Below are positions 6,028 to 62,256 of a DNA stretch of 64,000 nt, in pieces. Made by a program: the position numbers and the translations under genes. Positions within the stretch are counted from its first letter, which is position 1. Each line of letters opens with the position of its first letter. The notes under the pieces were generated by a model, which was not told the DNA's origin, searched no databases, and saw nothing but the letters and a program-made list of their open reading frames with translations. Source of the stretch: Deferrisomatales bacterium (GTDB lineage Bacteria; Desulfobacterota; Deferrisomatia; Deferrisomatales; JARGFW01); assembly GCA_029211085.1 (NCBI GenBank), contig JARGFW010000002.1, forward strand, positions 19,091-83,090, in the 5' to 3' direction.

Positions 6028-6298
6028 CTCCCTTCCCGGTGGGGGCTCGCCGACCCGGCCAGCGTACCCCTCCCTTCCGAGATGCCAAGCCGCGGGGAAA
6101 GAGGGGGCGGTGCACTGGCCAGCGACCGCACGTGGTGCATACTGGGAAACGGCTGCCCACCCACCCCGGGTGTTCCCGGGCACCACCGTTGGTTCGTTCC
6201 CGACGCCTAAGGAAACTTTCATCACGGTCTCACGCGTCTTTCACCTTGCACTCTTACTTTATAGGGAACGGCACCTACACCACGAAGGAGTTGATCCC

Positions 6299-7696
6299 AT
6301 GACCAGAAATCCCTACGTACCCGGCGCGATCCTCGCGGTCGCGACCTTCCTCGCCGCGGCGGCCTGGGCCACCCCGGCCCCCGAGTCGTTCGCCCCGCTC
6401 GCGGAGAAGCTCCAGCCCAGTGTGGTCAACATTTCCACGACCAGCACCACGAAACATCCCCGCATGCAGGGGAACGACCCGAACCAGGACCGCCTGCGCG
6501 AGTTCTTCGGAGACGAGTTCTTCCGGCAGTTCTTCGGCGGCGACGCGCCCCACCCCGGGTTCAAGAGCCAGAGCCTGGGTTCGGGGTTCATCCTGGACCG
6601 GGAGGGCTATGTCATCACCAACAATCACGTGGTGGAGAACGCCGATGAGATCCTGGTGCGGCTCTCCGACGAACGCGAGTTCAAGGCGCAGGTGGTGGGC
6701 AAGGACCCGAAGACCGACCTGGCCCTGATCCGCTTCGACCCCAAGGGCGAGACCCTCCACCCGGTGGCGTTGGGCGACAGCGATGCCGTGAAGATCGGCG
6801 ACTGGGTAGTGGCCATCGGCAACCCCTTCGGGTACGGGCACACGGTCACCGCAGGCATCGTCAGCGCCAAGGGGCGGCTGATCGGGGCCGGCCCCTACGA
6901 CAACTTCCTGCAGACCGATGCGGCGATCAACCCCGGCAACTCGGGTGGGCCCCTGTTCGACATGCAGGGTCGTGTGGTCGGGATCAACAGCGCGATCGTC
7001 GCCGGGGGGACCGGGATCGGCTTCGCGATCCCCGTAAACCTGGCCAAAGAGGTCGTCTCCCAGCTCAAAGAGAAGGGCACGGTCACCCGGGGCTGGCTGG
7101 GGGTGATGATCCAGGAGGTCAGCCCGGAGCTGGCGAAACAGTTCGGCCTGGAGGAGGCCAGGGGCGCCCTGGTTGCCGAGGTTGCGTCGGGGGGGCCCGC
7201 CGAGAAGGGCGGCCTCCAGCGGGGCGACGTGATCCTGACCTTCGACGGGGTTGCGGTGGACAAGATGAACCAGCTGCCGCGGCTCGTGGCCCAGCGGGAA
7301 CCGGGCAAGAAGGTGGAGGTGGGGGTGCTGCGCAGGGGCGAGGAGAAGACCCTGTCCGTGGCCCTGGGCGAGTTGAAGGGAGAAGCCGTCGCCGGGGAGC
7401 CGGGTACGGCGGAGGCGTTGGGCCTCACCGTCCAGGAACTCACGCCGGCACTGCGTAAACAGCTCGACCTGGGGCCCGACGGCGGGCTGATCGTGGCGGG
7501 GGTGGAAGCGGACGGGGCCGGGGGAAAGGCGGGGCTGCGCCGCGGCGACGTGCTCCTGGAGGTGAACCAGACGCCCGTGCCGGACCTGGCCTCCTACCGG
7601 AAGGTCCTCGCCGACGCCAAGGGCAAGGACAGCGTCCTCTTCCTGATCAAGCGGGGGGAAGGGAGTCGGTATCTGGTGGTGCCCCTGGGGAAGTGA
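6299..7696 (+). CDS. degP: HtrA/DegP-family periplasmic serine protease with two PDZ domains
   Basis: This is a periplasmic protease/chaperone that removes misfolded envelope proteins. A signal peptide (about residues 1-25, AAAAWATPAPES) is followed by a trypsin-like domain. The catalytic His is in TNNHVVENADE, the Asp in PKTDLALIRFD and the Ser in GNSGGPLFD. PDZ1 begins near GWLGVMIQEV and PDZ2 near LGLTVQELTP. At 465 residues it has the size of DegP/DegQ/MucD. The ATG at 6299 follows GAAGGAG. Upstream, GGAAACTT at 6211 with GTCTTT 17 nt later faintly resembles a sigma-E promoter, a common control for this family, but the match is weak. Confidence 0.93.
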   Translation: MTRNPYVPGAILAVATFLAAAAWATPAPESFAPLAEKLQPSVVNISTTSTTKHPRMQGNDPNQDRLREFFGDEFFRQFFGGDAPHPGFKSQSLGSGFILDREGYVITNNHVVENADEILVRLSDEREFKAQVVGKDPKTDLALIRFDPKGETLHPVALGDSDAVKIGDWVVAIGNPFGYGHTVTAGIVSAKGRLIGAGPYDNFLQTDAAINPGNSGGPLFDMQGRVVGINSAIVAGGTGIGFAIPVNLAKEVVSQLKEKGTVTRGWLGVMIQEVSPELAKQFGLEEARGALVAEVASGGPAEKGGLQRGDVILTFDGVAVDKMNQLPRLVAQREPGKKVEVGVLRRGEEKTLSVALGELKGEAVAGEPGTAEALGLTVQELTPALRKQLDLGPDGGLIVAGVEADGAGGKAGLRRGDVLLEVNQTPVPDLASYRKVLADAKGKDSVLFLIKRGEGSRYLVVPLGK

Positions 7697-7712
7697 GCCC
7701 TCGATCCACCCC

Positions 7713-7982
7713 TTGGACGGAAGAGCAACTCTGCGGGGCCGGGGCCAGATGGCCCCGGCCCCCTGGCGCTGGAGACCGAAGGGGAGCCGGCTCCGGACCT
7801 ACCGGTTCCGCCACGGGGAGCAGTTCTACAACTTCCAGGGTCTGCTCGCCTACAAGGAGAAATTCGATCCCGTGTGGGAACCCCGGTATCTGGTGACCCG
7901 CGGCGGGCCCGGCGTGGCCCGCGCGCTGCTGGACGTGGCGGCGTTGATCGGCGGCGGCCTGCGGGCAGTGTTGGCGAAGTGA
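7713..7982 (+). pseudogene. C-terminal remnant of MprF (lysylphosphatidylglycerol synthase/flippase)
   Basis: The frame encodes RFRHGEQFYNFQGLLAYKEKF followed by DPVWEPRYLV and a hydrophobic tail LDVAALIGGGLRAVL. This is how MprF-type (DUF2156) proteins end. A full MprF is about 850 residues with many membrane helices. Only the last 65 or so residues remain, preceded by sequence without homology-like character. The relic directly follows htrA, and its stop codon overlaps the GTG start of the antiporter gene (GTGA), so it may still matter for translational coupling. Confidence 0.6.
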
Positions 7983-49911: not shown

Positions 49912-50844
49912 ATGGGCTATCGCAAGGAAGACGCTGGCGCCACGAGCCGCCGCACCGCCGAGGTGAAGCGGGTTCTGTGGATCATTCTCTTCCTGAACGT
50001 CGCCGTGGCGGCGGGGAAGTTCTTCTACGGTCTGTTCATCGACTCGGTGTCGATGCAGGCGGACGGCTTCCACTCCATGTTCGACGGCACCTCGAATGTG
50101 ATCGGTCTGGTGGGCATGAGCTTCGCCGCACGCCCCGCCGACCGCGGTCACCCCTACGGCCACGGCAAGTACGAAACCTATGCCTCGGCCATCATCGGCG
50201 CCATGCTCCTCATGGCCGCCTGGAAGATCGGCTCGGCTGCGGTGGGCAAGCTCTTCGCCGGGGTCGCCGAACCACCCCGGGTGGACGCCACGGCCTTCGC
50301 CGTGATGGCCGTCACCCTCCTGGTGAACATCTTCGTGGCCTGGTACGAGCGCCGCAAAGGGTTGGCGCTGCAAAGCGACATCCTGGTGGCCGACGCTTCC
50401 CACACCGGCAGCGACATCCTGGTGAGCAGCGGCGTACTCGTCGGCCTGTGCTTCGTCAAGCTGGGCATGCCTCTGGCCGATCCCATCATCGCGCTGCTGG
50501 TGGTCGCCGCGATCCTCTGGTCCGCCTGGGGGGTCTTCGGCAAGGTCAACCGCACCTTCTCGGACAGCGCCATCCTCCCCGTGGGGCAGGTGTGCGGCAT
50601 CGCCGAACGGGTGGAGGGTGTGCTGGGCTGCCACTCCATCCGCACCCGCGGCCCGTCGGCGCAGATCCACATCGACCTGCACATCCAGGTGGACCCGGAA
50701 CTCACCGTCGCCGCGGGCCACGCCATCGCCGAAGAGGTCGAGGAAGCCCTGTGCGAGGGCATTTCCGGAGTCGTCGACGTCATCGCCCACCTCGAACCCT
50801 GGGACGAGTACCAACAGAGCAAGACCCAGAAGCAGGGGTTTTGA
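49912..50844 (+). CDS. Cation diffusion facilitator (CDF) metal efflux protein
   Basis: The 310-residue protein has six membrane helices and the two metal-binding signatures of CDF pumps, DSVSMQADGFHSMFDGTSN in helix 2 and VADASHTGSDILVSSG in helix 5. A cytoplasmic C-terminal domain (GVLGCHSIRTRGPSAQIHID) follows. These exchange Zn2+, Fe2+, Mn2+ or other divalent ions for protons. I start at ATG 49912 behind GGGGAG. The ORF-track start a kilobase upstream reads through the divergent gene. Confidence 0.92.
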   Translation: MGYRKEDAGATSRRTAEVKRVLWIILFLNVAVAAGKFFYGLFIDSVSMQADGFHSMFDGTSNVIGLVGMSFAARPADRGHPYGHGKYETYASAIIGAMLLMAAWKIGSAAVGKLFAGVAEPPRVDATAFAVMAVTLLVNIFVAWYERRKGLALQSDILVADASHTGSDILVSSGVLVGLCFVKLGMPLADPIIALLVVAAILWSAWGVFGKVNRTFSDSAILPVGQVCGIAERVEGVLGCHSIRTRGPSAQIHIDLHIQVDPELTVAAGHAIAEEVEEALCEGISGVVDVIAHLEPWDEYQQSKTQKQGF

Positions 50845-50926: not shown

Positions 50927-52039
50927 TCACCCGAGGGCTCGCCCGGGAAGATCTACCCGAACCCGGGTGCCGGTTCCTGTGGGGCGGTCCGTCAGGGTTG
51001 CCTCGCCCCCCATGGCCCTGGCGAGGGTGCGGACGATGTAGAGCCCCAGCCCTGTGCCGGCCACCCCTTGGGCCGCCCGCCCGCGATAGAAGCGCTCGAA
51101 GATGAGATCCCTCTCCCTCCCAGGGATCCCAGGCCCCTCGTCATCCACTTCGAGAAAGACCCGCTCCTGGTTCCCGCCGGTGCGGACCACCACTGTGGTG
51201 TCCCGGGGACTGTAGCGGACCGCGTTTTCAACCAGGTTGGACAGGCAGACCCGCACCGCCAGCTCGTTGCCCAGGGCCGTGCGGCCGGGGGTGGCACCGT
51301 CCAGCCGCAGGCGGATGCCTCGTTCCTCCGCGGACTCCCTGTGGAAGCTGGCCACGACCTGGGCCAACTCGTTGAGATCCAGTTCCTCGGCGGGCAGACT
51401 CAGCACCCCGTTCTCCACCCGGCGCAGCAACAGGACCTCCTCGGCCAGGGTGCCCAGGTATGAGGACGTCTCGAGAATCACCTGGGCATAACGTCGGCCG
51501 CGCTCGTCCGCGACCGGCTTGGAGGCGAGCTGGTTAGCGAAACCGCCGATCACCACCAGTTTGTTTTTGAGTTCGTGAAAGAGCAGGTTCTGGAACTCCA
51601 ACTGGGACTCCCGACCCGCTTCCGACCGCCGCAGTTGGCGTGCCACTTCCTGGGTTTCCTTGGTCCTGGACAGCATATTCTGGACCTTCAGCACCACCTC
51701 CCGGACCGCGAACGGCTTGGCGATGTAGTCATCGGCCCCGAGTTCCAGACCCCGCAGCTTGTCCGAGACGGAGGCCAGCGCGGTTAGCATGACGATGGGC
51801 AGGCCGGATACGGCCGGGTCGGCGTGGCCACGGATCATGCGGCAGATCTCCCAGCCGGTCAGGTCGGGGAGGAGCAGGTCCAACAGGACCAGGTCCGGCT
51901 GCTGGTCACCGATGGCGCGGCACGCGGTGAGGCCGTCGTGTGCGGTGAGGGTGCGAAAGCCGGTTGCCTGGAGGTTGAACTCCAAAAGTTCCGCCACCTC
52001 GGGCTCGTCTTCGACGATCAGCACCGTGCTTTGCGACAT
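50927..52039 (-). CDS. Receiver-histidine kinase hybrid of the Pho regulon
   Basis: The 370-residue protein puts a PhoB-like receiver first (VLIVEDEPEVAELLEFNLQA, acceptor Asp in DLVLLDLLLPDLTG, Lys in DDYIAKPF). A coiled coil and a histidine kinase core follow (phospho-His in LLFHELKNKLVVIGG, N box LVENAVRYSP, G boxes DDEGPGIP and GTGLGLYIV). There is no membrane helix, so it is cytoplasmic. I start at ATG 52039, and the extra N-terminal residues of the ORF track lack homology. A Pho-box-like sequence with a correctly spaced -10 lies about 80 nt upstream, so phosphate limitation should induce it. Its receiver may be a target of PhoR, and its kinase may feed another regulator. Confidence 0.88.
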   Translation of the reverse strand: MSQSTVLIVEDEPEVAELLEFNLQATGFRTLTAHDGLTACRAIGDQQPDLVLLDLLLPDLTGWEICRMIRGHADPAVSGLPIVMLTALASVSDKLRGLELGADDYIAKPFAVREVVLKVQNMLSRTKETQEVARQLRRSEAGRESQLEFQNLLFHELKNKLVVIGGFANQLASKPVADERGRRYAQVILETSSYLGTLAEEVLLLRRVENGVLSLPAEELDLNELAQVVASFHRESAEERGIRLRLDGATPGRTALGNELAVRVCLSNLVENAVRYSPRDTTVVVRTGGNQERVFLEVDDEGPGIPGRERDLIFERFYRGRAAQGVAGTGLGLYIVRTLARAMGGEATLTDRPTGTGTRVRVDLPGRALG

Positions 52040-52107
52040 GGGTCTTCTCCCAGACACCGGGTCCCCGTCCCCATGAACAGGGACGCCTGCCACTTGCCTC
52101 TGTCTGG

Positions 52108-52141
52108 AGGGTAGCAGCCGACTGTTACGGCCGGGTGAACG
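52108..52141 (-). promoter_or_regulatory. Pho box with -10, promoter of the receiver-kinase gene
   Basis: On the minus strand CGTTCAC-CCGG-CCGTAAC (52141-52124) is a 7-4-7 repeat, followed after exactly 10 nt by TACCCT (52113-52108). The first half-site is the least conserved of the four Pho boxes seen here. Confidence 0.5.
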
Positions 52142-52192
52142 GCAGATGACGGTTTGGCGGACGAAGTGTAGTGAGTGGGGTGGCTGGGAGAG

Positions 52193-52423
52193 CTACTTGT
52201 TCCGCAGATCCCGGTGCCCGGCGAACGGATGGGGCCGCAGGCTGCGCAGCAGCTTGCCCAGGTAGGTGGGGCATCCGTCGTGGTTCGGGGAAGTGCAACG
52301 TGTGGGCTCCTGCCCAAGGGCCCTGGTAGCAGCGCCCAAGGAGGCCAGGCAGGACTCTGGACTTCCATACCGGTAGGGGCAGGCGCCGGGTTCTGGTTGG
52401 ATCGTGGGGAAGTGCATGGCCAA
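52193..52423 (-). CDS. Small cysteine-rich conserved protein in the Pho regulon
   Basis: The 76-residue protein contains CPYRYGSPESCLASLG, TRCTSPNHDGC and PTYLGKLLRSLRP, with four cysteines in a pattern I know from small uncharacterised proteins often encoded beside two-component genes. They may bind a metal or iron-sulfur cluster. The start is a TTG with GAGGAG 8 nt upstream. A Pho box and -10 lie 40-70 nt before it. It precedes the receiver-kinase gene on the same strand with a 153-nt gap that holds a second Pho box. Function is unknown. Confidence 0.65.
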   Translation of the reverse strand: MAMHFPTIQPEPGACPYRYGSPESCLASLGAATRALGQEPTRCTSPNHDGCPTYLGKLLRSLRPHPFAGHRDLRNK

Positions 52424-52458
52424 GGGTGTCTCTCCTCTTCTGGGGGGTTGTTGTGCGT

Positions 52459-52492
52459 AGTGTAGCTGCTCCGAGTTACCGGTGGGTTACAG
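52459..52492 (-). promoter_or_regulatory. Pho box with -10, divergent to pst
   Basis: On the minus strand CTGTAAC-CCAC-CGGTAAC (52492-52475) is followed after 10 nt by TACACT (52464-52459). The repeat is nearly identical to those of the pst operon and pstS, so PhoB should activate the small cysteine-rich gene at the same time as phosphate uptake. Confidence 0.7.
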
Positions 52493-52606
52493 GCGGATGA
52501 AGGTTTTCCGGAGGTGGTCTGGCGCTTGCCCACCCATCGCGGCGCGGCCCGAAACCCGCCCGGTTCATGGGCCCGGGGGTGGAATATTCATCTGGCCGAA
52601 ATCGGG

Positions 52607-52640
52607 TTGTAACATTCCGGTAACATGCTATCTGTATGCT
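52607..52640 (+). promoter_or_regulatory. Pho box with -10, promoter of pstCAB-phoUBR
   Basis: TTGTAAC-ATTC-CGGTAAC (52607-52624) followed after 10 nt by TATGCT (52635-52640). PhoB-type activators bind such 11-bp-spaced repeats in place of a -35 element. Transcription would begin near 52647, downstream of the ATG used in the ORF track. Confidence 0.75.
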
Positions 52641-52710
52641 GCGGGCCGGAAGCGTCGAGAGGCGCATCCGCTCGCATTCTGCCCACCGGACCCCGACCGC
52701 GGAAAACACC

Positions 52711-55383
52711 TTGCCGATCAACGAGTCCCCATCGACAAACACCCACCGCGCCGACAGCGGTCCCGCGGAGCCGGCGCCGGGTGAGGCTGCGCCGAAAGCC
52801 CAGGAGGTCGTCTACCGCCGCAACAAGGAGACGCGACGGGCAGTCTTCATCGCGGATCGCCTGGCCAAGCGGGTGATCAGCGTCGGCGGCATAGCGGTCA
52901 TCGCCGCCGTCCTGGGAATCATGGTCTTCCTGGTTGCCGAGGTCGCACCGCTGTTCATGGGCGGAGAGGTCCTGGACGAAAGTGCCTATTCGCTGGCCGT
53001 GCCCCCCCGTTCCGGCACGGCCACCGCGTGGGACGAGTACCGCCGTATGGCGACCATGATCAGCCGGGACGGCTCCATCACCGCGGTACACGCCCCCAGC
53101 GGCAGGGTACTGCTGACGGAGGACCTCGCGTTCGCCCAGGTGCCCTCCGCCAGTGCTCACATCCTGGGCGGGTCCCAACTGGTCTTCGGGTTTCCCGACG
53201 GCAGCGCCCAGGTGGTCGCCGCGGGGTTCCGCAGCGAGGTCCTTCCGTCCGAGGAGGAACCCGCGGGACTGGAGCACCTGCCCGGCGGTGACCGTACCGA
53301 CGGGGCGGCGGTCTTTTCCGATATCCCCGGTGGCCAGGTGCGCAGGGTGTACGTCGAGAGGCTCCTGGAGGATTCCTTTCGGGTCACCGGTGGTCTGGGA
53401 GTGCGCGCCATCGGCATGGCGGACTCGGGCGGGGGGCAGGACTCGACCCGCGCCTTCGTGGCCCTGGACTCAGCCGGCGAACTCTGGCTGACCCAGGCCC
53501 GCACCAAGAAGAATCTGATGACCGGGGCCCTGCGTACCAGGACGCGAACGGTCCAGCTCCCGCGCATCCCGGGGCTCTCCGCCGACCCGTATCTGCTGCT
53601 GTCGAGGGGCGGCCAGAACGTCATCGTGGCGCTGCAGGACGGCACGGTCTTCCGCTTCGACGCCAGCGATCTGGCGGAGCCCGTGCTGGCCGAGACCTCG
53701 CGCCTCACCCCGCCGGGGGTGGGCGTCGCGGCCCTGGCCTTTCTGGTGGGTGAACAGTCCCTGGTGGTGGGCGGGACCGACGGCAGCGTCAACATCCACT
53801 TCCTTTTGCGACGGGACGGGGCAGGAAGCACCGATGGCCGGCGTCTGGTACGCACCCGTGACCTGCAGCCCCACGGGGCAGCGGTGACGCGCATCGTGCC
53901 CAGCGGGATCGACAAATCCTTCCTCACCGCGGATACTACCGGGGCCCTCTGGTTGCGCCACGCCACCAGCAACCAGGTGCTGCTGCGGTTTTCCCGGGAG
54001 CAGGACGCGATCTATCAGTACCTGGCCCTGGCGCCCCGCCAGAATGGCGTGTTCGCGGTGACCGAGGCGGGAGCGGCCCGGTATTGGCACATTTCGGTGC
54101 CCCACCCGGAGACCTCCTGGAAGACGTTCTGGGGGCGTATCTGGTACGAGGGCTATCCGGAGCCCACCTTCACCTGGCAGTCCTCGGCCGCCACCGATGA
54201 CTTCGAGCCCAAGCTCTCCCTGGTGCCGCTCGTCTTCGGCACGCTCAAGGCCACCTTCTACTCCATGCTGTTTGCCGTCCCGGTGGCGCTGTTGGCGGCG
54301 TTCTTCGTCTCCGAGTTCATGGGGGGACGGGCGAAGGGCGTATTGAAGCCCGCCATGGAGATGATGGCCTCCCTGCCGTCGGTGGTGCTCGGCTTCGTGG
54401 CGGCGCTGGTGTTGGCGCCCGTGGTCGAGACCTGGATCGGCTCCGTGCTGCTCTGCTTCCTCACGGTTCCGGCGCTGCTGGTGCTCGGGGCTCACCTGTG
54501 GCAGCTGCTGCCCCGCAACCTCGCCGACCGCTACGACGGCAGTGTGAAGTTCGCCTGTATGGTCGCCTCCCTGGTGGTCGGGGTCTACCTCGCGGTGCTC
54601 CTGGGCAGCGGCTTCGAGCGGGTCTTCTTCCAGGGCAGCATCACCCGCTGGCTGTCCGGCACCGAGGGCTCCGGGCGTCCCCTGACCTTCCTGCTGCTGT
54701 TGCCGCTCTCCCTGTTCGCGGTGCTGGCCTACGGGGCCCGTCACCCGGTCAACCCCTTCTACCGTCGCTCCAAGAACGCCGACGGTCTGCGGGCCGGACT
54801 CTACTCCTTCGCCGGGTTCTCCTTGTCGCTGGTGGCGGCCGGGGTGCTGTCCGCAGTCGCCGCGGAAGGTCTGGTGCGCTTCGGTTTCGACCCCCGCGAC
54901 GGCCTGGTGGGCACCTACGTGCAGCGCAACACCCTGCTGATCGGCTTCGCCATGGGGTTCGCGGTGATTCCCATTGTCTTCACCATCGCGGAGGACGCCC
55001 TGTCCGCGGTGCCCGATCACCTGCGGGGGGCGAGTCTGGGGTGCGGGGCCACCATCTGGCAGACGACCCTCTGGGTGGTCATGCCGGCGGCCATGAGCGG
55101 CATCTTCTCGGCGATCATGGTGGGTATGGGGCGGGCTGTGGGGGAGACGATGATCGTGGTCATGGCGGCGGGCAACACCCCCATCATGGACATCAACGTG
55201 TTCAACGGGCTGCGCGCCCTCTCCGCGAACATCGCCGTCGAGCTTCCGGAAGCCGTGGTGGGCGGAACCCTGTACCGGACGCTGTTTCTGTCCGGCCTGG
55301 TGCTGTTCGCCGCGACCTTTGTCGTGAACACCGTGGCCGAGCTCGTCCGCTTGCGCTACCGGAAGAAAGCCAGGCAGCTGTAG
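52711..55383 (+). CDS. pstC: Phosphate ABC transporter permease PstC with large periplasmic insert
   Basis: A membrane helix (GGIAVIAAVLGIMVFLVAEV) is followed by about 430 residues with repeated blade-like units (SGRVLLTEDLAFAQ, DGTVFRFDASDL, GTDGSVNIHFLLRR), which looks like a beta-propeller in the periplasm. The C-terminal permease part has LVFGTLKATFYSMLFAVPVA and the ABC-contacting EDALSAVPDHLRGASLGCGA. Ordinary PstC is about 300 residues, so this long form is roughly three times that size. The ORF-track ATG at 52636 lies inside the -10 of the Pho promoter, so I prefer the TTG at 52711 (weak GGAAAA site). The true start could be elsewhere nearby. Confidence 0.85.
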   Translation: MPINESPSTNTHRADSGPAEPAPGEAAPKAQEVVYRRNKETRRAVFIADRLAKRVISVGGIAVIAAVLGIMVFLVAEVAPLFMGGEVLDESAYSLAVPPRSGTATAWDEYRRMATMISRDGSITAVHAPSGRVLLTEDLAFAQVPSASAHILGGSQLVFGFPDGSAQVVAAGFRSEVLPSEEEPAGLEHLPGGDRTDGAAVFSDIPGGQVRRVYVERLLEDSFRVTGGLGVRAIGMADSGGGQDSTRAFVALDSAGELWLTQARTKKNLMTGALRTRTRTVQLPRIPGLSADPYLLLSRGGQNVIVALQDGTVFRFDASDLAEPVLAETSRLTPPGVGVAALAFLVGEQSLVVGGTDGSVNIHFLLRRDGAGSTDGRRLVRTRDLQPHGAAVTRIVPSGIDKSFLTADTTGALWLRHATSNQVLLRFSREQDAIYQYLALAPRQNGVFAVTEAGAARYWHISVPHPETSWKTFWGRIWYEGYPEPTFTWQSSAATDDFEPKLSLVPLVFGTLKATFYSMLFAVPVALLAAFFVSEFMGGRAKGVLKPAMEMMASLPSVVLGFVAALVLAPVVETWIGSVLLCFLTVPALLVLGAHLWQLLPRNLADRYDGSVKFACMVASLVVGVYLAVLLGSGFERVFFQGSITRWLSGTEGSGRPLTFLLLLPLSLFAVLAYGARHPVNPFYRRSKNADGLRAGLYSFAGFSLSLVAAGVLSAVAAEGLVRFGFDPRDGLVGTYVQRNTLLIGFAMGFAVIPIVFTIAEDALSAVPDHLRGASLGCGATIWQTTLWVVMPAAMSGIFSAIMVGMGRAVGETMIVVMAAGNTPIMDINVFNGLRALSANIAVELPEAVVGGTLYRTLFLSGLVLFAATFVVNTVAELVRLRYRKKARQL

Positions 55384-55392
55384 GGAGCGGAG

Positions 55393-57111
55393 ATGCGGAC
55401 GAAATCGATCCCAAACGGTGAAGTACTCGTGAAGCGCTCGGCCAGGGCAGGCCTCGGCGCCCGCGGCGAGCCCCAGGTGTGGTCGCTCGGGGGATCCCTG
55501 GCCCTGGGGGTGCTGATGATCGTGGGGTTCCTGTTGCTGATCCTGTGGAACGGGATCGTGACCTTCTGGCCCAAACCAATCGAGGTGCTGCGCCTCCACG
55601 ACGGCAGGGTGATCGCCGGGGAGCGCACCCGCAGCGAGATCTACCGCCCGCGCCCCGACGAATTGGCCCGCTGGTCCGAGGAAGCCACCGGGACGGTGGC
55701 AGGGGACGGCATGGCCGGCCGCTCCCTGTACCGGATCGCCAACTTCGACCTCTACAACGAGGATTTCGCCTGGGTCTCCGACTACCAGATCGGCTCGCGC
55801 ACCCGGGACCCAGATTTCTATTTCGTGGAGCGCACCGAGTGGGGCCCCTTCGTGGGCAAGGTGGCGGCCCTGCACCTGGACTCCCAGGCTCTCGACGACG
55901 TGGGGAAGATTGTCGAGGTGCTTCCCCGGGAGCTCGAGGCGGCCGCCGAACGCCGCGAAACCCTCCGGACCCTCGAGCGCACGGAGCTCGGCAACATCAA
56001 CCGCGCCTTCGAGGAACTGCGGCTGGAGCTGAGGGCGGTGGCCCTGAAACACGGCGAGCAGAGCGAGCCGTACCGCAAGGCGCAGCTCGACCAGCGGGAA
56101 GAGATCGCCGAGCTGGAGGCGCGCCACCAGGAGCTTGCCGCGGAGGCACAGGCGGTCCGGGGCCAGGACCAGAAGTTCGAGCTGGTGCTGCAGGACGTGA
56201 ACGGCACCGAGAAGACCCTGCGGCTGAGCGACGTGGTGCGCCTGTACCCGGCCAACCGGCTGGGCGTGTTCGGCAAGGTGGGGGTCTACCTGTCCCGCTG
56301 GGCGGAGTTCCTGACCAGCGAGCCCCGGGAAGCGAACACCGAGGGCGGGGTCATGCCCGCCATCTTCGGTACCTTCGCCATGACCCTGCTGATGGTGCTG
56401 TTCGTGGCCCCGTTCGGGGTGCTGGCGGCCCTGTACCTGAGCGAGTACGCGAAGCAGGGGCGCATCGTCAGCGCCGTGCGCGTCTCGGTCAACAACCTGG
56501 CCGGGGTACCTTCCATCGTCTACGGGGTGTTCGGCCTGGGGTTCTTCGCCTACCTGGTGGGCGGCGGGATCGACCAGTGGCTGTTCCCCGAGCGTCTGCC
56601 CAGCCCCACCTTCGGCACGGGCGGCCTGCTGTGGGCTTCCCTGACCCTGGCCCTCATGACGGTTCCGGTGGTGATCGTCGCCACGGAAGAGGCCCTCTCC
56701 GCGGTCCCCCAGTCCATGCGCGAAGGGTCCCTGGCGTGCGGCGCCTCCAAGTGGCAGACGGTGCGCAACATCGTGCTGCCCCGGGCCATGCCCGGGATCA
56801 TGACGGGGCTGATCCTGGCCATGGCCCGCGGGGCGGGTGAGGTGGCCCCGCTGATGCTGGTGGGGGTGGTGAAGCTGGCGCCGGACCTGCCCATCGACGG
56901 CGTCTTTCCCTACGTGCACCTGGAACGTAGCTTCATGCACCTGGGCTTTCACATCTTCGACGTCGGCTTCCAGTCCCGCAACTCCGAGGCGGGCAAGCCG
57001 ATGGTGTTCGTTACGACCCTGCTCCTGATTGCGATCGTGGCGCTCATGAACGCCGTCGCCATCGTCATCCGGAACCGGCTCAAGCGCAGATTCGCGACGG
57101 GGCATTTCTGA
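55393..57111 (+). CDS. pstA: Phosphate ABC transporter permease PstA with coiled-coil insert
   Basis: The 572-residue protein has an N-terminal helix ([19 protein letters not shown]). About 270 periplasmic residues follow, including a long charged coiled coil ([20 protein letters not shown] ... [17 protein letters not shown]), then the PstA permease domain. That domain has [38 protein letters not shown] and the ATPase-contact motif [20 protein letters not shown]. Standard PstA has about 280-300 residues. Both permeases in this operon therefore carry matching extra periplasmic parts, which probably meet each other or PstS. Confidence 0.92.
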
Positions 57112-57112
57112 C

Positions 57113-57934
57113 ATGCAAACGGCAGCGGCACCTGTGGACCGTTACGAAGAGACCATCTACCACGAGAAACTGGGGCCCGACGGCCCGCTGGTGGTGATCG
57201 AGAACTTCAACCTGTGGTACGGCCAGGCCCAGGCCCTCTACGATGTCACCCTGAATTTGCAGAAGGGGCTGGTGACCGCGTTGATCGGCCCCTCAGGCTG
57301 CGGCAAGTCCACCCTGCTGCGGTCCCTGAATCGCATGAACGATCTCATCGACGGGCTGCGGGTGGCGGGCGGTGTGCGTTTCGACGGGCAGGACATCTTC
57401 GCCCGGGATCTCGACGTCATCGGGTTGAGAAAACGCATGGGCATGGTCTTCCAGAAGCCCAACCCGTTCCCCATGTCGATCGCCGAGAACGTCACCTATC
57501 CACTGAAAGTCGATGGGGTGCGCGACCGGTCCCTGCTGGAAGCGATCATGGAGAAGGCTTTGCGCGGGGCGGCGCTGTGGGACGAGGTCAAGGATCGGCT
57601 GAAGGAGAGCGCGCTGGGCCTGTCCGGCGGCCAGCAGCAGCGGCTGTGCATCGCCCGGGCCATCGCCGCAGACCCCGACGTGCTGCTCATGGACGAGCCG
57701 TGCAGCGCGTTGGATCCCGTGGCCACGGCGAAGATCGAGGAGCTGATGGAGGAACTCAGCGGCCGGTACACCATCGTCATCGTCACCCACAACATGCAGC
57801 AGGCGGCGCGGGTCTCCCACAACACGGCGTTCATGTACCTGGGCCGGCTGATCGAGTACGGTGAGACCCTCAAGATCTTCACCACACCCAAGGGCGACCG
57901 CACCAAGGAATACGTCACGGGCCGCTTCGGCTAA
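57113..57934 (+). CDS. pstB: Phosphate ABC transporter ATPase PstB
   Basis: The 273-residue ATPase has [15 protein letters not shown], Walker [10 protein letters not shown] with the PstB-typical [12 protein letters not shown], signature [14 protein letters not shown], Walker [14 protein letters not shown], and the H-loop [12 protein letters not shown]. It energises phosphate import through PstCA. It starts one nt after the pstA stop, so the operon is tightly packed. Confidence 0.96.
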
Positions 57935-57946
57935 GGGGACAGGCAG

Positions 57947-58642
57947 ATGAAGCAACACACGAGTAGAGCCTTCGCGCAGGAACTGGAACAACTGAGAGAA
58001 ATGGTCCTGCGCATGGGTGGCCACGTGGAGACCGCCATCGCCGAGGCCATGCGCGCCCTGGTGGAGCGCGACCCGGACCTGGCCCGCAAATGCATCGGCG
58101 AGGACCACGCCGTCAACAAGATGGAGGTGGACATCGACGAACTGTGCGTCAGCATCCTGGCGCGCCGTCAACCGGCGGCGGAGGACCTGCGGCTGCTGAT
58201 CAGTGGACTCAAAACCTCCACGGACCTGGAACGGATCGGCGACCTGACGGTGAACATGTGCGAGCGAACCCTGGATCTCCTGGAGGTCCCGCCGCTGAAA
58301 CCCCTGATCGACCTGCCCCGCATGGCCGAACTGGCCGGCGGCATGTTGAGCGACGCCTTGAACGCCTACGTGAAGGGGGACGCGGAGCTCGCCCAGGAGG
58401 TGTGCATCCGCGACGATCTGGTCGATCGGCTGAACGAGCAGGTGTTCCGGGAACTGATCACCTACATCATGGAGGACCCCCACACCATCTCCCAGGCCCT
58501 GGCGCTGATGATGATCTCCCGCTACCTGGAGCGGATCGCCGACCACGCCACCAACATCGCGGAGATGGTGATCTATCAGGTGAAGGGCCGAGACATCCGC
58601 CACATGCGGGTCGGCGAGGAACACGCCGGAAAACCGGTGTAG
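57947..58642 (+). CDS. phoU: Phosphate signalling protein PhoU
   Basis: The 231-residue all-helical protein has two PhoU repeats. The metal-binding motifs are MEVDIDELCVSILARRQP with TSTDLERIGDLTVNMCER in the first repeat, and RYLERIADHATNIAEMVIYQ in the second. PhoU links the Pst transporter state to PhoR and keeps the regulon off when phosphate is plentiful. It follows pstB by 12 nt. Confidence 0.95.
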   Translation: MKQHTSRAFAQELEQLREMVLRMGGHVETAIAEAMRALVERDPDLARKCIGEDHAVNKMEVDIDELCVSILARRQPAAEDLRLLISGLKTSTDLERIGDLTVNMCERTLDLLEVPPLKPLIDLPRMAELAGGMLSDALNAYVKGDAELAQEVCIRDDLVDRLNEQVFRELITYIMEDPHTISQALALMMISRYLERIADHATNIAEMVIYQVKGRDIRHMRVGEEHAGKPV

Positions 58643-58650
58643 GGTGGGGC

Positions 58651-59346
58651 ATGGCGAGAATCCTGGTAGTCGATGACGAGAAGGATCTGCTGGAACTGCT
58701 GCAGTTCAACCTGGAGGTGTCCGGCCATGGGGTCGCGACCGCCACAACCGGGTGGGAAGGGCTGGAAAGGGCCCGCGCCGACAAACCCGATCTGGTGGTG
58801 CTGGATGTGATGCTGCCCGACCTGATCGGCTTCGAGGTCCTCAGGAAACTGCGCGAGAGAGAGGAGACCCGCTCGATACCGGTGATCCTGTTGACGGCCC
58901 GGGGCGAGGAGTCCGACGTGCTGGTGGGCTTCGAACTGGGTGCCGACGACTATGTCTGCAAGCCGTTCAGCCCCAAGGAGCTGCTCGCGCGCATCCGGGC
59001 GGTTCTCCTGCGCGGCCGCGACACGGCGGGCGGAGCGCAGTGCGTGCGCTTCGGCAGTCTGGAGGTGGATATATACAGTCACCAGGCGCGCAAGAACGGC
59101 CAGGAGATCACCCTGAGCCCCCAGGAGTTCAAGCTGCTGGCGTTCCTGGCGACCCACCCCAGGCGGGTGTTCACCCGCGAGAGCCTGCTGGCCCATGCCT
59201 GGGGCACGGATGTGTACGTGGATCCTCGGACCGTGGACGTGCACATTCGACGATTGAGGACCCAGGTAGAGGACGACCCCTCGAAGCCGCGCTTTCTGGA
59301 GACGGTGCGCGGAACCGGTTACCGCTTCAATCCCAACGTGACATAG
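58651..59346 (+). CDS. phoB: Phosphate regulon response regulator PhoB
   Basis: The 231-residue OmpR-family regulator has ILVVDDEKDLLELLQFNLEV, the acceptor Asp in DLVVLDVMLPDLIGFEVL, and DDYVCKPFSPKELLARI. The winged helix carries LSPQEFKLLAFLATHPRRVF and the recognition helix DPRTVDVHIRRLRTQVED, which is PhoB-like. It should bind the Pho boxes of this region. I start at ATG 58651, 8 nt after phoU. The ORF-track start lies inside phoU in another frame. Confidence 0.95.
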   Translation: MARILVVDDEKDLLELLQFNLEVSGHGVATATTGWEGLERARADKPDLVVLDVMLPDLIGFEVLRKLREREETRSIPVILLTARGEESDVLVGFELGADDYVCKPFSPKELLARIRAVLLRGRDTAGGAQCVRFGSLEVDIYSHQARKNGQEITLSPQEFKLLAFLATHPRRVFTRESLLAHAWGTDVYVDPRTVDVHIRRLRTQVEDDPSKPRFLETVRGTGYRFNPNVT

Positions 59347-59354
59347 GGGACAAG

Positions 59355-61094
59355 GTGCGCAACTCGATTCTCTCCCGCCTGGTCTTCCACTCCATTCTGG
59401 CCCTATTGGCGCTGTTGGTCACCGCCGGTTTTCTGCTCGACCGGTATCTGAGTGAGCGAGAGATCGGGCGGCTGGAAGGTGAGTTGGCGCGAGCCGCCGG
59501 AGTGGCGGCCATCTTCCTCGATGACGGTGTCGGCGCGTTGGAGCGGAACCTCAAGGAGCTCAGCGCGCGCTCCGGGATGCGCTACACGGTCATTCGGAGA
59601 GACGGGGTCGTGCTCGCGGATTCCTCAGCCGACCCGGCTAGCATGGATAACCACGCGGACCGGCCCGAGATCGCCACGGCACTCCAGGGTCGCAAGGGGT
59701 CGTCGCAACGTGCCAGCCCGACCCTCGATTTGGGTATGCTCTATGTGGCCATTCCCACCGACCCGGTGATCCGGGTGGCGAAGCCGGTTGCCGAGGTCGA
59801 CGTCCTCCTCCAGCAGATCCGGCGGCGGATCGTCCTCGCCTGCGTTCCTGCCTTTTTGCTGGGGCTGGCGCTTTCGGTAGGACTCTCCCTGGGGCTCAAG
59901 CGGCGCATCCAAACCATGGAGCGCTTCGCCAAGAAGCTGGCCGCAGGGCAGTACGAAAAGGCGCTCGCAGTCTGGGGCAGTGACGAGCTGGGCAGCCTGG
60001 AGATCAGCCTCGACGGGCTGCGGGTGGAGCTGGAACGTCAGATCAATCAGATCAATGCAGACCGGGAACGGCTGCTGTCGCTGCTGGACGGGATTCCCGA
60101 TGCCGTGCTCCTGTTCGACGCCTCCAGTCGTTTGACGGCCCACAACCGGATGGCGGAGCGCTTGCTGGAGCTGGTCGGGAAAGGTACGGCCGGCGTGTAC
60201 GGGGCCGAGGTGATTCGCCACCCAGGGATTCTTCGCAGGCTCGATGCGGCGTGCCACGGGGAGGCGATCGACCCCGCCCCCCTCGGCGTGCACTGGGACA
60301 AGGGCAATCGGGAACTCAGTGTCACCTTCCATGCGGTGAAGACCGGTAGGGGCGAGAACCACATCCTGGTCCTGCTGCGGGACATGACCCACGAGGCACA
60401 CCTGGAGAAGGTCCGCACCGACTTCATCGCCAACATGGCCCATGAGCTCCGCACCCCGCTGACCGCCCTGCGCGGCGCTTCCGAGACCCTCCTGACCACC
60501 GGCAGGGACAATCCCGCGCTGCTGGAGCGCTTTCTGGGCACCATCAACCGTCACGCGGAGCGGCTCGGCAACATCCTGGCCGACATTTCCCAACTCGCGC
60601 TCACCGAGAGCGGCGCGGTCCAGGCGAAGCCCACCCCTCACGACGCGCGGGCAGTGGTCGCGGAGGTGCTGGCCCTGTTCGGCGACCAGGCGGAGCGCGC
60701 CGGCGTTTCCCTGCTGAATGCCTCGCCGGCCGGGGCGGTGCCCCTCGTCTCGGACGTGGAGGTGGTGGAGTCGATCCTCGTCAATTTGGTGCAGAACGGG
60801 GTCCGATACACCCCCAAGGGCGGCACGGTGACCGTGGGCGTTCAGTCGCTGCCCGAGGGGAAGGTGGAGTACTCGGTGCGAGACACCGGAATTGGCATCC
60901 CACCCCGCGACCTGCCCCGCGTGACCGAGCGCTTCTACCGGGTCGATGCCGGGCGCTCGCGGGACAGCGGCGGCACCGGGCTGGGGCTGAGCATCGTCAA
61001 ACACCTGGTGGGCCTGCTGGAGGGTGAGTTGGCCATCGAGAGCGAGTACGGGAAGGGCACCGCGGTTCGGGTCACCCTGCCGTCCCTCGGCTGA
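59355..61094 (+). CDS. phoR: Phosphate regulon sensor histidine kinase PhoR
   Basis: The 579-residue kinase has two membrane helices (about 8-30 and 150-175) around a periplasmic segment (GVGALERNLKELSARSGM), then HAMP. A PAS domain follows (LLSLLDGIPDAVLLFDASSR), then the phospho-His in ANMAHELRTPLTALRGASE, and ATP-binding boxes LVQNGVRYTP, RDTGIGIPPRD and GTGLGLSIVKH. Unlike short E. coli PhoR it has a periplasmic loop of over 100 residues, as in the Bacillus or long proteobacterial forms. The start is GTG 59355 behind AGGGGA, 8 nt after the phoB stop. Confidence 0.92.
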   Translation: MRNSILSRLVFHSILALLALLVTAGFLLDRYLSEREIGRLEGELARAAGVAAIFLDDGVGALERNLKELSARSGMRYTVIRRDGVVLADSSADPASMDNHADRPEIATALQGRKGSSQRASPTLDLGMLYVAIPTDPVIRVAKPVAEVDVLLQQIRRRIVLACVPAFLLGLALSVGLSLGLKRRIQTMERFAKKLAAGQYEKALAVWGSDELGSLEISLDGLRVELERQINQINADRERLLSLLDGIPDAVLLFDASSRLTAHNRMAERLLELVGKGTAGVYGAEVIRHPGILRRLDAACHGEAIDPAPLGVHWDKGNRELSVTFHAVKTGRGENHILVLLRDMTHEAHLEKVRTDFIANMAHELRTPLTALRGASETLLTTGRDNPALLERFLGTINRHAERLGNILADISQLALTESGAVQAKPTPHDARAVVAEVLALFGDQAERAGVSLLNASPAGAVPLVSDVEVVESILVNLVQNGVRYTPKGGTVTVGVQSLPEGKVEYSVRDTGIGIPPRDLPRVTERFYRVDAGRSRDSGGTGLGLSIVKHLVGLLEGELAIESEYGKGTAVRVTLPSLG

Positions 61095-61152: not shown

Positions 61153-61197
61153 CCACAACGCGGCCATAACAATCCGGTAACACCGCGGCAGTAAACT
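61153..61197 (+). promoter_or_regulatory. Pho box with -10, promoter of pstS
   Basis: Three 11-bp units run in series: CCACAACGCGG, CCATAACAATC, CGGTAACACCG (61153-61185). The last two form the core 7-4-7 Pho box. TAAACT (61192-61197) begins exactly 10 nt after CGGTAAC. pstS thus has its own PhoB-driven promoter downstream of phoR. Confidence 0.75.
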
Positions 61198-61284
61198 CCC
61201 CCACAAGAAACTCAAGCAGCCTGCAACCCGTTGCGCGGCGTCGGATTGCGGGTTCTACGGAAGCGCCGCCTGGAGTGGAGTCAA

Positions 61285-62256
61285 ATGAGAGTATTCATCA
61301 AGGGATTGTCGATCACCGGATTGGCCCTGTGCCTGGCTGCCCCGAGCCTGGCACTGGAAGTGGACTCGAAGATTCAGCCGTACAGCAAAGTGAGCGGGGT
61401 CTCCGGCAGCATCAAGTCGGTGGGCAGTGACACCCTCAACAACCTGATGACCCTGTGGTCGGAGGGCTACCGCGCGTCCTACCCCGCCGTGAGGATCGAG
61501 ATCGAGGGCAAGGGGTCCTCCACCGCGCCCCCGGCGCTGATCCAGGGCACCTCGCACTTCGGCCCCATGTCGCGCGCCATGAAGGGCAAGGAGTCAGACG
61601 AGTTCGAAAAGAAATTCGGCTACAAGCCCTCCCGGGTGCGGGTGGCGGTTGACGCCCTGGCGGTGTTCGTGAACAAGGACAACCCGCTCCAGTGTCTCTC
61701 CATGAAGCAGCTCGATGCGATCTTCTCCAAGAACCGCAAGGGCGGCTACCCGGACGACATCCACACCTGGGGCGAACTGGGCCTGACCGGCGAGTGGGCC
61801 AACAAGCCGATCTCCCTGTACGGCCGCAACTCGGCCTCGGGCACCTATGGGTTCTTCAAAGAGGAAGCGCTCTTCAAGGGCGACTACAAGGACAGTGTCA
61901 AGGAGCAGCCCGGTTCCTCGGCTGTCGTGCAGGGCGTCGCTTCCGACAAGTACGGCATCGGTTACTCCGGCGTGGGCTACAAGACCGCCGACGTGCGCAC
62001 CGTGCCCCTGTCCGGCGAGGGCGGGTCCTGTTACGACGCCAACGCCGAAAACGCCTACAGCGGCGACTACCCCCTGGCCCGGTTCCTCTTCGTCTACCTC
62101 AACAAGAACCCCAACACCGGTCTCGACCCCCTGCGGGGCGAGTTCATCAAGTACGTGTTCTCCAAGGAAGGCCAGATCGCCGTCATCAAGGACGGGTACT
62201 TCCCGGTGTCGAAAGCCCTTGCCGATCAAGACCTTGCCGGGATCGGTCTGAAGTAG
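61285..62256 (+). CDS. pstS: Phosphate-binding periplasmic protein PstS
   Basis: The 323-residue protein has a signal peptide (GLALCLAAPSLALEVD) and phosphate-binding loops typical of PstS: VGSDTLNNLMTLWSEGY, GKGSSTAPPALIQGTSHFGP and GRNSASGTYGFFKEEAL. It delivers phosphate to PstCA. I start at ATG 61285 with GGAGTGGAG upstream, and the ORF-track start 18 codons earlier would place basic residues before the leader. The separate promoter and terminator let it be made in excess over the membrane parts. Confidence 0.95.
   Translation: MRVFIKGLSITGLALCLAAPSLALEVDSKIQPYSKVSGVSGSIKSVGSDTLNNLMTLWSEGYRASYPAVRIEIEGKGSSTAPPALIQGTSHFGPMSRAMKGKESDEFEKKFGYKPSRVRVAVDALAVFVNKDNPLQCLSMKQLDAIFSKNRKGGYPDDIHTWGELGLTGEWANKPISLYGRNSASGTYGFFKEEALFKGDYKDSVKEQPGSSAVVQGVASDKYGIGYSGVGYKTADVRTVPLSGEGGSCYDANAENAYSGDYPLARFLFVYLNKNPNTGLDPLRGEFIKYVFSKEGQIAVIKDGYFPVSKALADQDLAGIGLK

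Follow-up and report, generated by a model that had tools for sequence, protein, structure and literature searches.

A candidate Pho-controlled, receiver-driven histidine kinase and a four-cysteine protein beside the pst operon of a Deferrisomatales bacterium

The 64,000-nucleotide stretch of Deferrisomatales DNA analysed here (the window) encodes, beside its phosphate uptake genes, a histidine kinase that may be controlled by a receiver domain of its own. We propose that this protein is a phosphate-starvation-induced, Rec-controlled soluble kinase forming a second tier within Pho two-component signalling, a reading for which we judge the case about evenly balanced. The proposal is built from sequence: the domains and catalytic residues of the protein, its Pho promoters, a two-gene layout, its conservation, and the Pho association of its relatives. 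Textbooks present the Pho system as a two-component pathway of a single kinase and a single regulator; a conserved Pho-controlled kinase with a receiver as its sole input would give it a further tier, with feedback or branching, here in a group of bacteria whose phosphate signalling has been little studied. Rec-controlled kinases would in turn gain a tractable nutrient pathway outside pathogens.

The kinase reading frame (52039-50927, minus strand) is intact and its ATG start is preceded by the ribosome site GGGAGAAG. Its 370-aa product (50927..52039) has the Pfam order REC-HisKA-HATPase_c, with a receiver at aa 6-119 (51683..52024, minus strand; Response_reg PF00072, 1.3e-24), a HisKA/DHp domain at aa 148-211 (51407..51598, minus strand; PF00512, 4.5e-5, slightly under the Pfam cut-off) and a catalytic domain at aa 258-365 (50945..51268, minus strand; PF02518, 3.8e-25); the Pfam scan of the 370 residues returned no other domain. 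The catalytic residues are complete both in the receiver (E10/D11, the phospho-acceptor D54, T86, K108) and in the kinase core (H155 in the H-box FHELKNKL, N272, D300). Across 38 aligned family members the catalytic residues of the kinase are nearly invariant and D54, K108, H155, E156 and N159 do not vary at all, while the PhoB-type interface residues of the receiver are kept in 36 of 38 (R/K91) and in all 38 (E111). An AlphaFold2 model (13-sequence alignment, mean pLDDT 84) showed one uninterrupted helix, 112-173, leading from receiver alpha5 into DHp alpha1, and nothing pointing to a membrane segment. The distance from K108 to H155 is 47 residues in 36 of 38 members and 40, one heptad shorter, in the other two, so that spacing changes in heptad steps within the family. 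On these grounds the first-pass annotation was correct in placing a PhoB-like receiver ahead of a soluble kinase core.

That annotation had also called the domain order inverted. The receiver is indeed N-terminal here and C-terminal to the kinase core in classical hybrid kinases, but Rec-controlled kinases such as LvrB are a recognised class, described as frequent (PMC13269768), and the idea of an unusual order finds no support. LvrB of Leptospira (PDB 8vc9) is the best PDB fold match to our model over its full length (E 2.5e-22) and also a full-length sequence match (aa 8-360); the large rmsd fits a differing domain placement in the monomer model. The two proteins share the REC-DHp-CA order, the lack of any other sensor, a soluble nature, a length of about 370-380 aa and, as modelled here, the unbroken alpha5-alphaS-alpha1 helix. 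Phosphorylation of the LvrB receiver, mimicked with BeF3, activates the autokinase: the receivers dimerise via alpha4-beta5-alpha5, alphaS forms a coiled coil and the catalytic domains are set free (PMC13269768). The resemblance has its limits, since identity is only ~20% and LvrB itself belongs to a phosphorelay for virulence that runs from LvrA to LvrC, whereas the H-box HELKNKL, the predicted Pho control and the association with pst and porin genes are peculiar to the kinase described here. In canonical HisKA kinases the H-box carries a proline. The family H-box, HE[LMIV]xN[QKHS], lacks Pro at H+5 in 38 of 38 members, and autokinase activity may therefore be altered; it also holds an invariant E-x-x-N, which in HisKA kinases is known as the phosphatase motif. 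Together these two features suggest that the kinase/phosphatase balance may be shifted.

The protein also resembles the PhoR-PhoB pair, its receiver matching PhoB (TIGR02154, 6.6e-35) and its core PhoR (TIGR02966, phoR_proteo, 1.4e-33) as well as PnpS (6e-37) and ArcB, and it appears to share the same Pho-box control. Unlike PhoR sensor kinases it has no membrane anchor with PAS or HAMP input in the Pfam scan, and unlike PhoB/OmpR response regulators no C-terminal Trans_reg_C DNA-binding domain.

As first annotated, the kinase is transcribed away from pst, the plus-strand series pstC-pstA-pstB-phoU-phoB-phoR starting at about 52636. It comprises pstC (52636..55383), pstA (55393..57111), pstB (57113..57934), phoU (57947..58642), phoB (58651..59346, putative start judged from MARILVVDDEKD) and phoR (59349..61094, start approximate), so that a complete PhoBR pair is encoded in the window separately from the kinase. 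Further on lies pstS (61231-62256, plus strand; PF12849, 3.3e-32), preceded at 61164-61181 by a weaker Pho box, CCATAACAATCCGGTAAC (61164..62256 with the box included). The called pstC, at 915 aa, is very long, and the -10 predicted for the pst promoter contains its first ATG; its true start is therefore probably further in, downstream of 52636. On the other side a gene for a cation-diffusion-facilitator-like transporter (49990-50843) converges on the kinase, with no sign of a shared unit.

The intergenic region between kinase and pst contains exact GTAAC-N6-GTAAC boxes (half-sites at an 11-bp period) at 52475-52490 on the minus strand and 52609-52624 on the plus strand, a pattern with five exact copies in the entire 5.78-Mb assembly against two for its reverse. 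A -10-like TAnnnT stands exactly 10 nt beyond the last half-site at the Pho boxes, and the composite KTMAC-N6-KTMAC-N10-TAnnnT occurs three times genome-wide (control 0), each time in this intergenic region; as the pattern was drawn up after the sites had been viewed, the count measures specificity and carries no independent p-value. One composite promoter, recovered by the pattern scan, serves the pst operon (GTAACATTCCGGTAAC-N10-TATGCT, 52609..52640, plus strand) and two serve the kinase side, namely a distal one (GTAACCCACCGGTAAC-N10-TACACT, 52459..52490, minus strand, with a third half-site extending to about 52503) and a proximal one (TTCACCCGGCCGTAAC-N10-TACCCT, 52108..52139, minus strand) 100 bp ahead of the kinase. 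The kinase-side and pst promoters each combine a PhoB box with a correctly placed -10, as expected of the Pho regulon. The half-site also fits (c/t)GT(n)AC, the PhoB motif of Desulfovibrio vulgaris (PMC3333781). The claim that the kinase lies behind its own Pho box held in part: the Pho promoters are real, but the strong box is ~435 bp upstream, ahead of a small gene not reported before, and the proximal box is the weaker (score 13.4 against 17.6). Pho control as such is strongly supported by the composite promoter and its recurrence in relatives. Degenerate Pho boxes with two mismatches were about as common in the window as expected by chance (13 against 11.9), and a scan for sigma-70 promoters and terminators gave no useful result. 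One composite site at 6229 (plus strand), which falls within an ORF and fails the stricter pattern used genome-wide, was put down to chance.

The small gene (52193..52423, minus strand; start TTG 52423 or ATG 52417) encodes a 76-aa protein with four cysteines and separates the distal Pho promoter from the kinase, as the first gene of a putative operon. A 171-aa ORF in another frame (52018-52533, minus strand) was dropped, the conserved protein occupying the 52193-52423 frame. A related genome, G001, repeats the layout, with a 77-aa homologue (45% identical) immediately upstream of a 55%-identical kinase and both downstream of a composite Pho promoter.

Homologues of the kinase were found at 31-55% identity in the order of the window and in other orders of the phylum, and in a tree the window kinase clusters with that of G001 and two f4 genomes (99/94). 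Conservation beside pst, which the first-pass annotation had named as a check, was borne out. For 13 of the 38 family members, window included, the surrounding sequence fetched (up to 18 kb) contains pst genes, and seven further members have a phosphate-selective porin of the Porin_O_P type without pst (Pfam-confirmed for L014). Kinase and pst genes diverge at L122, L125, L179, L180, L181 and L166, repeating the window layout; the kinase precedes phoB, phoR and pst on one strand at L168 and L174, and it lies beside phoB/phoR at L161, L167 and L179. Among 78 other REC/HK hits only one (L076) has pst nearby. Fisher's test of the family against these hits gave 1e-6 for pst, with homologues that are non-independent and cases that span several families; the 4e-11 obtained for pst or porin is generous, because the homologues are non-independent and porins were uncounted in the controls. 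Boxes upstream of the kinases scored above those upstream of the remaining genes at these loci (p = 5e-5 by permutation); the test is conservative, since its controls included pst and porin genes, some with boxes of their own. The composite promoter lies upstream of 8 of the 38 members against 0.03 expected, and four of these eight (L129, L180, L163, L175) had played no part in recognising the pattern. It is more specific than the simple Pho-box score, a noisy measure that reached significance for 15 of 38. Neither pst nor porin appears in the fetched stretch of about half of the homologues (some stretches being short); several of these carry Pho-type promoters. Many of the 38 have no recognisable Pho box upstream and most have no four-cysteine gene directly adjoining.

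Taken together these data argue for a conserved, sequence-level association of the kinase family with phosphate genes; the outcome that would have told against the first-pass reading, homologues with no association to pst or Pho boxes, did not occur. They also bear on an alternative in which an ordinary Rec-kinase stands next to pst by accident. Kinases away from pst do exist (L094, L123, L124, L159), but the association spans several families and Pho promoters are found even where pst is distant, members such as L094, L014 and L015 carrying some of the best boxes; an accidental neighbour is disfavoured, and in our estimate very improbable. A second receiver-kinase of G001 (L095:1094-2230, 40% identical) has no Pho box or pst neighbours and is apparently a non-Pho paralogue.

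The hallmarks of Pho control that this receiver-kinase shares with many relatives make an extra tier in the phosphate response probable, and how it would work, from PhoB binding and the phosphate donor to the mode of activation, the target and the part played by the cysteine protein, we infer as follows. Phosphorylated PhoB would turn on two units from the shared intergenic region, with pst-phoU-phoBR to one side and the cysteine protein with the kinase to the other. The receiver would act as the kinase input, D54 being phosphorylated most likely by PhoR, and would dimerise via its PhoB-like alpha4-beta5-alpha5 face. The DHp/CA core could then be re-set through the unbroken alpha5/alphaS helix, in the manner of LvrB, and once active would autophosphorylate H155. 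The kinase would finally give phosphate to, or as a phosphatase take it from, a response regulator, either PhoB or one encoded elsewhere. Phosphotransfer from PhoR to the receiver is plausible from the expression logic and from the phoBR genes that adjoin the kinase gene in several genomes. Similarity within the genome was tried as a guide to PhoB/PhoR specificity and set aside, as neither is the closest paralogue: the receiver is 39% identical to PhoB (95 bits) against 45-48% (95-97 bits) for two other receivers, and the PhoR core is not the nearest to the kinase core.

On the output side, no dedicated response regulator was found adjoining the kinase in the window, so the first-pass suggestion that the signal passes to another regulator is a guess. 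A dedicated orphan regulator was also considered as a recurrent neighbour and rejected, such genes being seen singly (an extra PhoB-like regulator at L122, a PhoB-like regulator near pstS at L126). The main rival to a second tier has the kinase, induced by PhoB~P, target PhoB alone, as an extra kinase or an E-x-x-N phosphatase, and so tune the length of the response. The phoBR genes sharing its strand or adjoining it in the five loci named above, the high scores of the core with PhoR-type models and the invariance of E156 and N159 all point this way, but the conserved receiver goes unexplained unless it is also phosphorylated within the loop, and PhoR is not the closest core in the genome. We regard feedback on PhoB alone as a serious possibility, though a minority one.

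The cysteine protein accompanies phosphate porins and Pho receivers and reveals a family lacking a Pfam or NCBIfam model, the window protein scoring above no curated cut-off in either collection. A search with a nine-member alignment placed the family in 25 of 395 genomes of the phylum. C15, C25, C43 and C51 are invariant in 21 aligned homologues, within the conserved surroundings CPYL, C-x-AS and C-x-[ST]-[ED]-[DE]-[HF]-x2-CP. Most of the small-ORF cases lie no more than 1.5 kb from a Porin_O_P gene, from the gene for a PhoB-like receiver or from one for a receiver-kinase. Porins of this type (OprO/OprP, PF07396) are frequent neighbours of both kinase and cysteine protein in related genomes; none lies in the window, and the two copies of this genome (L215, L216) are elsewhere with no recognisable Pho box nearby. 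The protein adjoins the receiver-kinase in the window and in G001, G104, G070 and G053, and a different receiver-kinase in G067. This pairing, together with the arsR/ACR3-like genes (recognised by eye) beside the G053 pair, would suit a system that is Pho-regulated but signals elsewhere, its receiver drawing phosphate from its own H155, from acetyl phosphate or from a different kinase, and its cysteine protein bringing in a metal, redox or other signal. Most kinase homologues, though, lack the cysteine gene directly beside them, and the AlphaFold2 prediction of the protein was uninformative (pLDDT 58, fold unpredicted). We consider such a separate pathway unlikely.

Other Pho loci of the phylum carry extra receivers in comparable surroundings. 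A parallel ARRANGEMENTS at L211:3333-10625 has the single-strand order phoB, phoR, cysteine protein, receiver-kinase, pstS, pstA, pstB, phoU, and its receiver-kinase, with the H-box HDLKTP, is a second type at a Pho locus. At L210 the order is phoB, phoR, single-domain receiver, cysteine protein, Porin_O_P, pstSCAB, phoU, and the L212 set is similar. These layouts indicate that an extra receiver with a cysteine protein recurs at Pho loci whether or not a kinase is fused to the receiver. The lone receivers (L210:7674-8368, L212 at about 7200-7843, L214:7008-7412) are PhoB-like proteins of 134-143 aa encoded immediately upstream of cysteine-protein and Porin_O_P genes at a pst cluster. Their comparable position would fit a receiver that serves as a phosphate sink, competing with PhoB for PhoR phosphate and delaying or damping the response, with any kinase output secondary. 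A pure decoy role, however, would not preserve the near-invariant kinase residues of the 38 members, and the lone receivers are nearer to PhoB than to the receiver of the window kinase, so that the resemblance of these loci to the window may be convergence; the decoy seems to us quite improbable. Extending the second-tier reading to these loci, we tentatively speculate that a conserved, undescribed Pho accessory module exists in this deltaproteobacterial phylum, in which a receiver supplied by PhoR, joined to a kinase or, in some genomes, standing alone, and a modulating or sensing four-cysteine mini-protein would make a branched phosphorelay; it is a possibility we hold with less conviction than the tier itself.

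Both the kinase architecture and the Pho regulon are already known. The D. vulgaris Pho regulon (PhoB DVU1083) extends past phosphate transport, and the parts of its description consulted here name no Rec-kinase or small cysteine protein among the PhoB targets (PMC3333781); in the open-access literature we found no conserved Pho-controlled Rec-kinase clade with a four-cysteine partner. Two further arrangements were noted in the phylum-wide comparison. A Desulfuromonadales MAG encodes a stand-alone receiver (L017:6620-6964) 53% identical to that of the kinase, with no in-frame kinase behind it, and at L128:5834-10059 a receiver-kinase and cysteine-protein pair lies beside arsR-, arsC- and ACR3-looking genes, which hints at a link between arsenate and phosphate.
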